From: Negativicutes bacterium
GTDB taxonomy: Bacteria; Bacillota; Negativicutes; Anaeromusales; Anaeromusaceae
Reading direction: 5' to 3'
Length of the DNA stretch: 64,000 bases
NCBI GenBank assembly: GCA_009929485.1
Contig: SAAJ01000007.1
Coordinates: forward strand, 1 to 64,000
Part shown: positions 15,821 through 19,976 of the stretch, in pieces
Layout of the letters: each line of letters starts with the position of its first letter
Numbering within the stretch: the stretch's first letter is position 1
The notes under the pieces: generated by a model
What the model was told of the DNA's origin: nothing
The model's input: only the letters and a program-made list of their open reading frames with translations
Database searches by the model: none
Translations under genes and position numbers: made by a program

Positions 15821-17104
15821 TTAAACACAGAAATATCTTAGGTACACATAAACATGAGAAATCAAAATAGAGCCGATCATAAGTGGGAAAGCAATTTTCA
15901 AATAGTGCTTAAATGAAAGCAAAATGCCATTTTTTTCAGCAATCCCTGCCACAACAACATTAGCAGTAGCCCCGATCAACGTTCCATTTCCTCCCAAGCA
16001 AGCTCCCAACGCTAAAGACCACCATACAGGTTCCAAATTCCCTCCCGATAATTGAGCCATTTCTTGCAACATCGGAATCATCGTTGCCACAAAAGGAATA
16101 TTATCAATAAAAGCCGAGGCAATCGCTGACAACCACAACATTAACAATGCAGTTTCCATGACTTGCCCCTGTGTCACTGACAACCCCCATTGCGCAAGCG
16201 CTCCAACAACCCCGCTTGCTTTTAGGCCTCCAACGAGAACAAACAAACCGATAAAGAAAAAAATAGTTGGCCATTCTACATTCAGCAGTATCTCTTCGGG
16301 CTCTTCCTTACTAATCAGCATCAAAAATATGGCGCCTGACATCGCTACCGTTGCGGAGTCCAAATGCAAAACACTATGGAAAACAAAGCCGCTTAACGTT
16401 AGCCCCAAGACCAGCAATGACTTTTTTAAAAGTGCGCTATCTTTAATCTCGTCTTTATAGTTCAACTTCAACACTTGAAGCCGATCTTTTTCTTCTACTT
16501 GCAAATCATTTCGATATAGAAAGAGTAAAAACAGCAGAGTTACCAATAAAATAATAATACTCACAGGCGCTAAGTTACTGGCAAAGGCATTAAAGCTTAA
16601 TCCAGTAGCACTGCCAATCATAATATTCGGCGGATCTCCAATAAGTGTAGCTGTTCCTCCAATATTGGACGAAATAATCTCCGAAATCAAAAAGGGAAGC
16701 GGGTTAATATTAAGCTTGTCCGTTAGGGTAATGGTAACCGGCACAATTAACAAAACCGTAGTCACATTATCAAGTAGAGCCGATGCGCCAGCTGTAATTG
16801 CAGACAAAAGAGCCAACAGACGAAGGGGGTAGGCTTCAGTCACGGTTGCGGCCCATATGGCTAGGGCTTCAAACACGCCCGTCCTCCGAGTAATGGTTAC
16901 CAAAATCATCATGCCAATCAGCAATCCCAACGTATTGAAGTCTATTGCCTCTTTGATTGCAGTATCCTGATTTAGGAAACCAAATAACAGCATAATACTC
17001 CCGCCGCTCATAGCTACAACCATTCGATGATATTTTTCCCAAATAATCAAGCCATACGTAACCACAAAAATCAAGATCGACCCATAAAATAAAACCTCTT
17101 GCAA
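15821..17104 (-). CDS. ArsB/NhaD-type ion transporter
   Basis: A 427-aa polytopic inner-membrane carrier of the ArsB/NhaD (ion transporter) superfamily. The family signature SNIGGTATLIGDPPNIMIGSA is present in the first half, and its inverted-repeat counterpart (ACLGGNGTLIGATANVVVAG) near the end; about eleven hydrophobic helices can be drawn. It could export Na+ in exchange for H+ or carry an oxyanion. The start is TTG at 17104 with AGGAGG at 17113-17118; the longer frame runs backwards into a structured leader and is not translated. The leader holds a Na+-riboswitch-like element, which favours a role in sodium homeostasis. Confidence 0.88.
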   Translation of the reverse strand: MQEVLFYGSILIFVVTYGLIIWEKYHRMVVAMSGGSIMLLFGFLNQDTAIKEAIDFNTLGLLIGMMILVTITRRTGVFEALAIWAATVTEAYPLRLLALLSAITAGASALLDNVTTVLLIVPVTITLTDKLNINPLPFLISEIISSNIGGTATLIGDPPNIMIGSATGLSFNAFASNLAPVSIIILLVTLLFLLFLYRNDLQVEEKDRLQVLKLNYKDEIKDSALLKKSLLVLGLTLSGFVFHSVLHLDSATVAMSGAIFLMLISKEEPEEILLNVEWPTIFFFIGLFVLVGGLKASGVVGALAQWGLSVTQGQVMETALLMLWLSAIASAFIDNIPFVATMIPMLQEMAQLSGGNLEPVWWSLALGACLGGNGTLIGATANVVVAGIAEKNGILLSFKHYLKIAFPLMIGSILISHVYVYLRYFCV

Positions 17105-17130
17105 AAATAACGCCTCCTCATAATACCTAT

Positions 17131-17185
17131 AAAAAAATAGGAGAAGCCCTTGGTGACAGGCTCCTCCTAACGATACACATATTAA
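17131..17185 (-). ncRNA. Candidate Na+-I (DUF1646-type) riboswitch / leader hairpin
   Basis: The minus-strand leader of the transporter gene carries ATATGTGT, then a block starting AGGAGGAGCC and ending CCAAGGGCT (plus positions 17146-17168). The block folds as AGGAG/CTCCT plus AGCC/GGCT around a UGUCACCAAG loop and is followed by AUUUUUUU, so it can also act as a terminator. The identical 24-nt block recurs at 19007-19030 ahead of a c-di-AMP riboswitch. Short leaders upstream of cation transporters that also pair with c-di-AMP riboswitches fit what is known of the Na+-I class. The assignment is by context and memory, not by covariance model. Confidence 0.55.
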
Positions 17186-17195
17186 ATTTATTCTT

Positions 17196-17224
17196 AGTAT
17201 ATCCGCCCCTGTTGAATTCGTCAA
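17196..17224 (-). promoter_or_regulatory. Promoter of the ArsB/NhaD transporter
   Basis: On the minus strand TTGACG (plus 17219-17224), a 17-bp spacer and TATACT (plus 17196-17201). The predicted start lies about 10-15 nt before the leader motif, giving a transcript of about 90 nt before the TTG start. Confidence 0.7.
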
Positions 17225-17269
17225 ACAAATTAGCAAATGCCTATTTTACATTTCCATATCATAATCTCT

Positions 17270-18844
17270 TTATTTAACGCTTTCTGCCGCCATTTTTTGC
17301 AAGGCTTCCACTTGCTCGTTTTTCACTGCCACGTATAAATAATCTCCTGCTTCTATCCTTGTTTCACCTTTAGGCACAATTTCGGATTCTCCGCGACGAA
17401 TAGTAAATAACAAGCACGAAGACGGCCAGGAAATTTGTTTCACCTGCTTGCCTGCCAGCTTTGAATTCACACAGACAAGCACTTCCACAATACTGCGCAA
17501 AGCTTGGACGCTTTCGGCTTTTCTTTTACCCTGCTTAAGTAATGCTTTTTCTAAAAGAACTTCATATATAGGCTGTACACGCAGCAGATCCGCCGTTAAA
17601 TACGCAATCACAGACACAAAAACCAATGGCAGCATATGGTGAAAAGCCCCAGACATTTCCATAATCAAAATACTTCCGGTAATAGGAGATTTTACAACTG
17701 CTGCAAAACATGCCGCCATAGAGAAAATTATTATATTGGCGCTATAAAACGAATCAAGAAGTCCAAACTGAACAAACCCATAGCTAAATAAGCTTCCTCC
17801 TAGCGCTCCAATAACCAGCATGGGCAAAAAGATGCCCCCTGGAACACCAGAACCATAGCTAATAAGCGTAAAGAAAAATTTAGCCGCCAACAAAGACAGC
17901 AAATACAAGAATCCAAAATTCGTTACTGTCAATTCATTTACCAGACCGTTGCCGCCTCCCAAAACCTCAGGCAACAGCAGCGCAAATACTCCGGCAAAAG
18001 CCAAGGGAAGCAACGCTTTGGAAAAGACGGACACCGGCAACAGCTTTTCGAATAGACTTCCCGCCACCAGCAACCCTTTATTAAATGCCGCGCCGAGAAT
18101 ACCCATCCCCACGCCTAGCACCAGCAGAATCCCAAAGCTTGCCACTGGAAACACTGGAACTCCAGCAAATGTAAAAACAGGGTTCTCACCATAAAAATAT
18201 TGCGACAACACTGTCGCTGTCAATGACGCCGTAATCGCGGATACAAGCACCGCCGGTGAGAAATTCTTATGTAGCTCTTCTAAAGAAAATACAACTCCTG
18301 CCAGGGGCGCATTAAATGCCGCTGCCAAACCAGCGCTAGCCCCGCTGGTCAACAAATAACGCTCCTCCATGCGACTTCTTCCCCATAGACGGCTAATCCC
18401 TTGTCCAACCACCGCGCCCAACTGAATGGATGGCCCCTCTCGGCCTAAAGAAAGCCCTGCCCCAATAGCCGTCACGCCGCCTGCAAGCTTAGCAACCAGT
18501 ACGCGCAGCCACGGCATGCGCATAACACCGCCCAATACTCCTTTCACCTGTGGAATACCACTGCCTGACGCCATCGGCTCCCAAGCAACTAGGGCATGAA
18601 GAATCCCTGCGACCAAAAGGGATAAGCTAATCCAGCCGCATATCGCTAGCCAAGATGTGTCTTTTATCGCCATCTGATATAAAAAACTTCTCAGGACTTC
18701 CGCGTTTTCTAAGGCGTATCGAAAGAAGACTACCACTCCGCCTGCCGCCGCACCAACCAAAACGCTCTCCGCAAACAGCTTAAAACGAAAATTACGCCAC
18801 TGTAACAGTGCTCCATAGGCGCTACTCACTCGATACTTGCGCAT
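17270..18844 (-). CDS. ClC-family chloride channel/antiporter with C-terminal TrkA-C domain
   Basis: A 524-aa ClC protein. Selectivity-filter motifs are visible: GSGIPQVKG, GREGPSIQLGA, the GVVFSLEE helix with its gating Glu, and GSGVPGGIFLP. About the last 75 residues form a TrkA-C (RCK_C) domain (SKLAGKQVKQISWPSSCLL to the end). The GREGP filter and absence of the fluoride-type signature argue for chloride rather than fluoride. TrkA-C domains are ligand-binding and, in some potassium transporters, bind c-di-AMP. The neighbours with Na+-like and c-di-AMP riboswitches make osmotic control plausible. ATG start with GGGAGAG upstream. Confidence 0.92.
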   Translation of the reverse strand: MRKYRVSSAYGALLQWRNFRFKLFAESVLVGAAAGGVVVFFRYALENAEVLRSFLYQMAIKDTSWLAICGWISLSLLVAGILHALVAWEPMASGSGIPQVKGVLGGVMRMPWLRVLVAKLAGGVTAIGAGLSLGREGPSIQLGAVVGQGISRLWGRSRMEERYLLTSGASAGLAAAFNAPLAGVVFSLEELHKNFSPAVLVSAITASLTATVLSQYFYGENPVFTFAGVPVFPVASFGILLVLGVGMGILGAAFNKGLLVAGSLFEKLLPVSVFSKALLPLAFAGVFALLLPEVLGGGNGLVNELTVTNFGFLYLLSLLAAKFFFTLISYGSGVPGGIFLPMLVIGALGGSLFSYGFVQFGLLDSFYSANIIIFSMAACFAAVVKSPITGSILIMEMSGAFHHMLPLVFVSVIAYLTADLLRVQPIYEVLLEKALLKQGKRKAESVQALRSIVEVLVCVNSKLAGKQVKQISWPSSCLLFTIRRGESEIVPKGETRIEAGDYLYVAVKNEQVEALQKMAAESVK

Positions 18845-18950
18845 AAACTAATCTCTCCCTAGTTTTCTATTTTCTTATTGTACCACGCCTCTCCTCCCGC
18901 TCACGTTTATTTTTAATTTTCTTTTCAAAATTAATTCTCCATTGACAAAT

Positions 18951-18980
18951 TTGACTAAAGAACAACCATTGTGTTATCAT
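18951..18980 (+). promoter_or_regulatory. Promoter of the riboswitch-dapB unit
   Basis: TTGACT (18951-18956), an 18-bp spacer and TATCAT (18975-18980). A TTGACA lies just upstream at 18942 but has no matching -10. The start is expected near 18987, shortly before the AUAUGUG of the leader. Confidence 0.6.
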
Positions 18981-18993
18981 GGTTACAAATGGT

Positions 18994-19040
18994 ATATGTG
19001 TTTTTTAGGAGGAGCCTGTCACCAAGGGCTCTTTTTGTTT
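18994..19040 (+). ncRNA. Candidate Na+-I riboswitch, first element of a tandem
   Basis: AUAUGUG, a U-run and the 24-nt block at 19007-19030 (starts AGGAGGAGCC, ends CCAAGGGCT), identical to that before the ArsB/NhaD transporter. GAGCC and GGCUC form a stem followed by UUUUUGUUUUC, so it can work as an intrinsic terminator. A c-di-AMP aptamer starts about 10 nt further on. The two signals would be read in series on one transcript. Confidence 0.55.
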
Positions 19041-19041
19041 T

Positions 19042-19192
19042 CTTCGCTGTATTCCCGCAAGTCGGGTAATGCATATAAGAAGCGCCTAATTCCAAAATTG
19101 GAAGCGGGGGACCCATTCTCGGGGTGAATCCTGAACATTCAGGTAGGGCGTATCTCTTTTCGCCCGAATCCGTCAGCTAACCTCGCCGGCGT
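19042..19192 (+). ncRNA. c-di-AMP riboswitch (ydaO/yuaA class)
   Basis: The conserved blocks of this class are all present in order: CGCCTAATTCC near 19083, GGGGGACCCA near 19106, GGGGTGAATCCTG near 19121, CAGGTAGGGCG near 19140, and CCCGAATCCGTCAGCTAACC with CTCGCCGGCGTAA at the 3' end. The closing stem can form between CGCTG near 19045 and CGGCG near 19187. It precedes the SD of the DapB-like gene by a few bases, so control is probably through ribosome access. In this class c-di-AMP binding usually turns genes off. Confidence 0.93.
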
Positions 19193-19211
19193 AAAAAAAG
19201 GAGGACTTCCA

Positions 19212-19976
19212 TTGAAACCAATCCAAGTAGGACTCTGGGGCTTTGGCAAAACCGGCCGCCTGGTGGCCAACGAATTTTTAAACGACAAACGCTTTGACTT
19301 GTCCTGGGTGGTGCGCAAAAGCACCGCCGATCACCATAAGTATGCCAGCCGCTTGTTAGGACAGGAATGCGACACTGGTGAAATTATTTCTATTGAAGAC
19401 ATCGGACCTTCTTTCTTTCGCGAGCATCCTGTCGATGTTCTTGTTGATTTCTCCAGTTCGCGCGGCGTTCACGCCTATCAGCACGCCGCCGAAGAAGGCA
19501 TTCCTATTGTCTCGGCTATCTCTCAATATGAAAAAGAAGACCTTGCTTTATTAGAGTCTTTAGCCCAAAAAACGCCAGTTCTCTACTCTCCTAACATCAC
19601 CCTGGGGATCAACGTTTTATTGATTGCAGCCCAAATTTTGCAAAAGATCGCACCTCACGCCGATATTGAAGTCGTAGAAGAACATTTCAAAAAAAAGCCC
19701 GAAATATCAGGCACCGCCAAAAAGATCGCCAAACTGTTGCAGCTAGACGACGAACATGTTAACTCGATTCGCGTAGGAGGCATCGTAGGACGCCATGAAA
19801 TTATTTTTGGCATGCCGAACCAAACCATTCGCCTCAGCCACGAAAGCATCAGTCGCGCTTCCTTCGGGCAAGGTGCTATTTTCGCAGCCAACTTCCTGGT
19901 AAAACAGCCTCCTGGTTTGTATTCCATGGAAGGGATCATCGCTGACATGTTCCGCGACAATATCCCAGTTTATTAG
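19212..19976 (+). CDS. DapB-like oxidoreductase (divergent dihydrodipicolinate reductase family)
   Basis: A 254-aa NAD(P)-dependent protein with an N-terminal Rossmann fold (VGLWGFGKTGRLVANEF) and a DapB-type C-terminal domain. The family active-site signature ExHHxxKxDxPSGTA appears in altered form as EEHFKKKPEISGTAKK: the first His and the Lys are kept, the second His is Phe and the DAPSG turn is EISG. The next block VGGIVGRHEIIFG matches DapB. The start is TTG with AAAGGAGG upstream. It may not be the housekeeping lysine-pathway enzyme; the leader with Na+-like and c-di-AMP switches suggests a role in osmotic adaptation or wall metabolism. Monocistronic, with a terminator after it. Confidence 0.8.
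   Translation: MKPIQVGLWGFGKTGRLVANEFLNDKRFDLSWVVRKSTADHHKYASRLLGQECDTGEIISIEDIGPSFFREHPVDVLVDFSSSRGVHAYQHAAEEGIPIVSAISQYEKEDLALLESLAQKTPVLYSPNITLGINVLLIAAQILQKIAPHADIEVVEEHFKKKPEISGTAKKIAKLLQLDDEHVNSIRVGGIVGRHEIIFGMPNQTIRLSHESISRASFGQGAIFAANFLVKQPPGLYSMEGIIADMFRDNIPVY

Follow-up and report, generated by a model that had tools for sequence, protein, structure and literature searches.

To our knowledge, RNA sensors for alkali ions are few: Na+-I, Li+-I, Li+-II and the rare variants termed Na+-II. The Na+-I riboswitch (DUF1646, RF03071), published as an ON switch acting through a terminator, occurs in the leaders of kefB/napA-type, nhaD and other Na+ genes and also upstream of c-di-AMP aptamers, with such tandems described before dapB and before ablA, the latter assayed as an 'A and not B' gate (PMC9337991). 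The Li+-I and Li+-II riboswitches and the Na+-II variants (nhaA-I, nhaA-II) are found in the leaders of nhaA and nhaD antiporter genes (PMC9646797). A further relevant case is the HMP-PP riboswitch (thiS motif), a proven ON switch with a terminator-embedded aptamer; attention was first drawn to it by its conserved terminator loop, its associated genes and its occurrence in tandem (PMC6478431). Here, we describe a leader motif that occurs twice in the window (the whole stretch of 64,000 nucleotides of Negativicutes DNA that was analysed) and that is apparently a small, widespread and undescribed RNA switch candidate lying before sodium/proton antiporter genes. It has no convincing match in Rfam 15, and no account of it was found in the open-access literature, RNA discovery papers included; it thus appears to be a new class within the known kind of cis-regulatory leader RNAs, and is probably a riboswitch.

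The two copies in the window lie on opposite strands, one before a DapB-like gene and the other before a CitMHS/ArsB/NhaD-like antiporter gene (Table 1). An earlier note on this DNA had pointed to a 24-nt block that is identical before the two genes, and this is borne out: AGGAGGAGCCTGTCACCAAGGGCT is present at 19007-19030 (+) and 17145-17168 (-) with 0 mismatches between the copies, and 0/100 dinucleotide shuffles gave a match to it, even allowing 3 mismatches. In both copies the predicted fold is a 12-bp hairpin with the 8-nt loop GUCACCAA followed by a U-run, and a sigma-70-like promoter is found ~20-30 nt upstream of each, which places both in 5' leaders. The likeness extends beyond the 24 nt to a 5' box that is also kept in relatives; the 3' arms are unlike (TTCTCCTA versus TCTTTTTG), with pairing maintained via G-U pairs. 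A covariance model of the motif (R1) matches the T1 copy at 18978-19057 (63.9 bits, E 1.3e-11) and the second copy at 17118-17198 (72.5 bits, E 8.5e-14). The antiporter encoded downstream of the latter scores 320 bits against PF03600 and above the cut-off for PF02040, with a sub-cut-off match to NF040989 (MamN; 218 bits). Between the copies lies a gene for a ClC-type chloride channel (17270-18844, -) with a TrkA_C domain (PF02080), which is frequently linked to c-di-AMP or nucleotide sensing. The locus around both copies is an ion-homeostasis cluster.

Table 1. Features of the two motif-bearing leaders and the genes that they precede (positions in the window)
Feature	Position	Strand	Basis
Sigma-70-like promoter of the tandem leader, TTGACT-18-TATCAT	18951..18980	+	Consensus scan, 10/12 matches, TG before -10
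5' box AATGGTATA of the tandem leader (consensus AANNNNAUA)	18988..18996	+	Alignment; position near transcript 5' end predicted
Motif hairpin / intrinsic terminator T1, TAGGAGGAGCCU-GUCACCAA-GGGCUCUUUUUG + U-run	19006..19037	+	Exact repeat, fold, terminator scan
c-di-AMP riboswitch aptamer (ydaO class)	19073..19205	+	RF00379, 105.3 bits, E 5e-24
DapB-like gene, TTG start, divergent paralog of 4-hydroxy-tetrahydrodipicolinate reductase	19212..19976	+	PF05173, PF01113 above cut-off
Promoter of the antiporter leader, TTGACG-17-TATACT	17196..17224	-	Consensus scan, 10/12
5' box AATTTAATA of the second motif copy	17180..17188	-	Alignments
Second motif copy, hairpin TAGGAGGAGCCU-GUCACCAA-GGGCUUCUCCUA + U7	17138..17169	-	Exact repeat, fold, terminator scan
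CitMHS/ArsB/NhaD-like (MamN-like) cation/proton antiporter gene	15821..17104	-	PF03600, PF02040

The second component of the tandem leader is the strong ydaO-class c-di-AMP aptamer that the earlier note had recognized: it covers the RF00379 (ydaO/yuaA) model over its full length (1-134) and, judged by this match, is an ordinary member of the class, for which ligand binding and OFF regulation are predicted; what is new is its tandem partner. Three c-di-AMP aptamers are present per genome in the window's genus. No terminator was seen between the aptamer and the start codon at 19212, and its output may therefore be translational. The DapB-like protein reaches 114.1 bits against the TIGR00036 equivalog, under the 122-bit cut-off, and a canonical dapB (286.2 bits) is present elsewhere in the genome; by homology, the former is a paralog distinct from the housekeeping dapB. 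Hence, of the earlier proposal that a DapB-like enzyme is under osmotic control, the identification of the gene as DapB-like stands, but as the product is a sub-cut-off paralog and the canonical gene lies elsewhere, lysine and cell-wall synthesis as a whole are not necessarily so controlled.

In its association with Na+ transport and osmotic genes and its tandem with a c-di-AMP aptamer, the motif shows the same trait as Na+-I, and the earlier note had placed it in the DUF1646/Na+-I class. A divergent Na+-I riboswitch would account for both the shared gene families and the shared c-di-AMP tandem before dapB (PMC9337991), but this is exceedingly improbable, as RF03071 is absent even at E<=10 from 18900-19230 and 17060-17290 in the most permissive Rfam search, eight further loci with the block have no Rfam match at the block (RF03071 included), and 0/16 motif-bearing genomes, four of them from the window's genus, contain RF03071, with Lactococcus lactis matching as positive control. 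Likewise, a 149-genome sample of the phylum contains two genomes with Na+-I, neither among those with the new motif. The architectures also differ: Na+-I has two stems (P1/P2) over 55 model positions and a separate terminator, and its consensus, GGUUGGGC...CAAGA...GGCUUCUGGGGUGGGAAGCC, is unlike the motif, which has neither the CAAGA-bearing P1 nor the GGGGUGG loop of P2. Membership in Na+-I is thus refuted at the level of sequence and structure, with a shared ligand alone being possible; as a statement about function, the label 'Na+-like' agrees with the associated genes and with the published Na+-I/c-di-AMP/dapB order, but it fails as a class assignment. Other known families fare no better: no Rfam family besides c-di-AMP reaches E 0.1 in the two window leaders, neither of which matches HMP-PP (thiS) at E<=10, and no match to the Li+-I, Li+-II or Na+-II elements appears at E<=10 in these leaders or at the block in the eight further loci.

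The motif is bipartite, consisting of the 5' box AANNNNAUA, a ~12 nt spacer and a hairpin of the form GGAGGAGYCUGUCACCAA..GGNUCCUYY-U(n). The box was exposed as a second conserved part, upstream of the hairpin, by an alignment of 65 exact-core members, from which R1 was also built, and its five fixed positions are 93-98% conserved across 152 non-redundant members. As the distance from box to hairpin is tight (12.7+-1.6 nt) and that from box to promoter -10 is scattered (15.9+-13.8), the box belongs to the RNA rather than to the promoter. In diverged members the stem varies with its pairing kept (33 compensatory cells, with both sides changed, versus 7.8+-2.3 in shuffles), and the stem supplies the two column pairs with the highest covariation anywhere in the motif (0.203 and 0.154 versus a permutation maximum of 0.086); the stem is thus supported by covariation. 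RNAalifold on the 65 members recovers the terminator stem alone; an alternative (antiterminated) fold common to all members was not found, and the covariation is for the terminator stem only. The 5' arm is conserved above the 3' arm, an effect due in part to query selection in the exact set but seen in the diverged set as well, where 5' positions such as A6, G7 and C9 are invariant and 3' positions drift, mostly via G-U. The 5' arm plus loop (GGAGGAGYCUGUCACC) is constrained beyond the needs of pairing.

These constraints bear upon a rival reading, by which the element has no regulatory role and is either a constitutive terminator of the ordinary kind or a repeat that duplication has spread. 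It does have all the hallmarks of an intrinsic terminator, and two copies in the source genome with common flanks look duplicated. Yet this is very improbable: nothing in a plain terminator calls for conservation of its loop, of one arm and of a detached box, and the loop and 5' box, which termination does not need, are kept across downstream gene families and across the phylum. Further, copies sit just downstream of promoters, and at 19 kb the ClC gene upstream of T1 is divergent, so that the hairpin has no same-strand upstream gene to terminate and is positioned at the start of the dapB-like gene's leader. The fallback foreseen in the earlier note, of only a repeated terminator hairpin, therefore captures the form of the element but not the retention of loop, 5' arm and box across Bacillota before unrelated antiporters.

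The layout of a conserved loop within an apparently plain intrinsic terminator, together with tight gene association, is shared with the HMP-PP riboswitch, from which the motif differs in sequence, in associated genes (thiamin in HMP-PP), in its tandem partner (TPP in HMP-PP versus c-di-AMP here), and in that a plausible competing pseudoknot is available to HMP-PP, with none found for the motif (PMC6478431). The conserved loop and U-run of this layout are present in the motif, a competing structure only in subsets and not family-wide. In L110, L155 and a set of Paenibacillus leaders including L103, a complementary segment further downstream, with U's after it, pairs with the conserved loop; there, the loop is built into a terminator and the short hairpin and the terminator are therefore mutually exclusive. 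A downstream anti-motif complementary to the loop and 3' arm is found in 17/173 cases versus 3 shuffled, i.e., it is real in a subset and not family-wide. Two other candidates were rejected: a pseudoknot of the loop (UGUC) with a GRCA just past the U-run, spotted in Paenibacillus, is at chance level (48/82 versus a shuffled mean of 38.9, maximum 53), and a leader peptide is disfavored in that, while the hairpin is readable in-frame in some copies, start codons are not conserved. In Fictibacillus (L036:1010-1085), a perfect 19-bp hairpin arises from pairing of the motif with a full reverse complement of itself, and the functional motif is probably on the opposite strand.

The exact 19-nt core was recovered in 111 stretches in a scan of 85,000 GTDB species genomes, versus a chance expectation of ~2 (estimated as 2 x 257 Gb / 4^19). 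Nearly all are from Paenibacillaceae (Paenibacillus or Cohnella), while Fictibacillus, Marininema and Sporomusa contribute one each; an exact match in Propionibacteriaceae (L072) lies within GC-rich sequence and looks like chance. R1 extends the motif to 64/200 genomes and 35/82 genera of the window's class and to 23/398 genomes of a phylum sample, the weakest matches in the latter being doubtful and resembling generic terminators; matches under ~34 bits, which include generic terminators, were left uncounted. The 16-nt core occurs in four exact copies in the source genome and in three or four in each of its three relatives. Several variations on the arrangement were observed: serial motif pairs ~300 nt apart before one antiporter gene, resembling other tandem same-ligand riboswitches (L218 at 1450 and 1749; L232 at 169 and 466; L199 at 1501 and 1799); head-to-head copies ~200 nt apart on opposite strands (L103 at 3713 - and 3916 +; L109 at 7617 - and 7820 +); and a tandem glycine riboswitch (RF00504) ~1.1 kb downstream of a motif match on the same strand (L202).

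Two further promoter-hairpin copies, with ~100 nt of flank in common, are found on other contigs of the source genome, namely C81 and C100 (L003:1463-1600 and L004:1473-1600, -), where they adjoin tRNA-Gly and nhaA; one of them looks like a duplicate that an island with restriction or toxin-antitoxin genes left behind. In the genus, standalone copies are separated from a downstream nhaA by 340-390 nt, within which an antisense tRNA-Gly lies, and may be distant nhaA leaders; the two in the source genome could be such leaders or a standalone, trans-acting small RNA. Several standalone promoter-hairpin copies in the genus would also suit a salt- or pH-responsive RNA-binding protein (antiterminator or stabiliser) that recognizes the box and the 5' arm/loop, as would the strong conservation of loop, 5' arm and box with no covariation beyond the stem, a pattern fitting a protein site or an aptamer. 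Such a protein appears rather unlikely to us, in that the spread of the motif over distant Bacillota demands an equally widespread regulator, and none was identified.

A cation/proton antiporter gene lies downstream in 101/107 exact matches with a readable downstream gene. Among 75 distinct model matches of >=40 bits, 61 precede antiporters, 3 DapB-like genes and 1 an MscS channel. Since both the model and the scan used DNA only, this gene association constitutes independent evidence. The antiporters belong to the CitMHS/ArsB-like, CPA2, CPA1/NhaP, CitMHS_2 (NhaD-like), NhaA and MrpA families, most of which are unrelated. A few strong matches precede other genes, such as those for MalK/DcuS-like histidine kinases and ABC transporters; the sensor histidine kinase is seen downstream of the motif in L193 (57.5 bits) and L220 (46.1 bits), and carboxylate uptake is Na+-coupled in many cases. 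Na+ is not the sole ligand candidate, given that antiporters respond to pH, Li+ and K+ as well, and it is possible, if on the unlikely side, that the RNA senses alkaline pH, Li+, K+ or another cation: all the associated antiporters move H+, and the CPA2 and NhaP-like families also include K+/H+ antiporters. Against such a signal, members of the NhaA, Mrp and NhaD-type families are classic Na+(Li+)/H+ antiporters, and the dapB and MscS associations point to salt or osmotic stress.

The tandem architecture before the DapB-like gene, built from a regulatory element held in common with a cation/proton antiporter leader, is upheld from the earlier note, and is not confined to the window. The order motif, c-di-AMP aptamer, dapB-like gene is seen in all genomes of the window's genus (L011, L013, L015) and again in L211 and L219, which are Sporomusa-like and belong to another family of the class. 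The genome of L211 has, in addition, a leader (L181) identical to that of Sporomusa malonica (L078) over ~80 nt. In L235, the motif precedes the same dapB-like gene with the c-di-AMP aptamer absent. By comparison of the two leader types, the motif occupies the position of Na+-I ahead of the c-di-AMP aptamer and is unrelated to Na+-I.

Building upon the observed conserved RNA element with its hairpin, leader position, gene associations and recurring tandem, and by analogy with the HMP-PP (thiS) riboswitch (PMC6478431), we consider it reasonably probable that the motif is a terminator-embedded ON switch for Na+ or a linked salt/alkali stress, with c-di-AMP as a second gate before the dapB-like gene. 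The transcript would begin at or close to the 5' box, ~12 nt before the terminator hairpin, and by default the hairpin would stop transcription ~50 nt past the start. A rise in intracellular Na+, or a tightly coupled alkaline or salt-stress signal, would cause the box and loop to take an alternative fold that blocks the terminator, such that the antiporter gene is transcribed. In the dapB-like leader, T1 would act as the first gate and the c-di-AMP aptamer as the second, with expression needing the stress signal and c-di-AMP modulating it. In proposing this mechanism we infer that read-through is regulated, that a ligand is sensed directly and what it is, that the alternative fold forms and that the switch has ON polarity. 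Its most specific form, a new riboswitch class of ~60 nt with a terminator-embedded aptamer that directly senses Na+, having arisen independently of Na+-I, serving at least six antiporter families in Bacillota and forming a Na+/c-di-AMP gate, is more tentative, with a chance somewhat under even.

The motif is present in well over a hundred of the genomes examined. It would explain how Na+/H+ antiporters are controlled in Paenibacillaceae and Negativicutes, two groups whose tested genomes gave no Na+-I, and offers a testable ligand hypothesis with a minimal construct of ~60 nt. The independent ion-plus-c-di-AMP tandem before dapB represents a convergence that ties salt stress to a DapB-like enzyme; if the motif is indeed a direct Na+ riboswitch, it would be a convergent repeat of the Na+-I/c-di-AMP/dapB arrangement before a dapB paralog.
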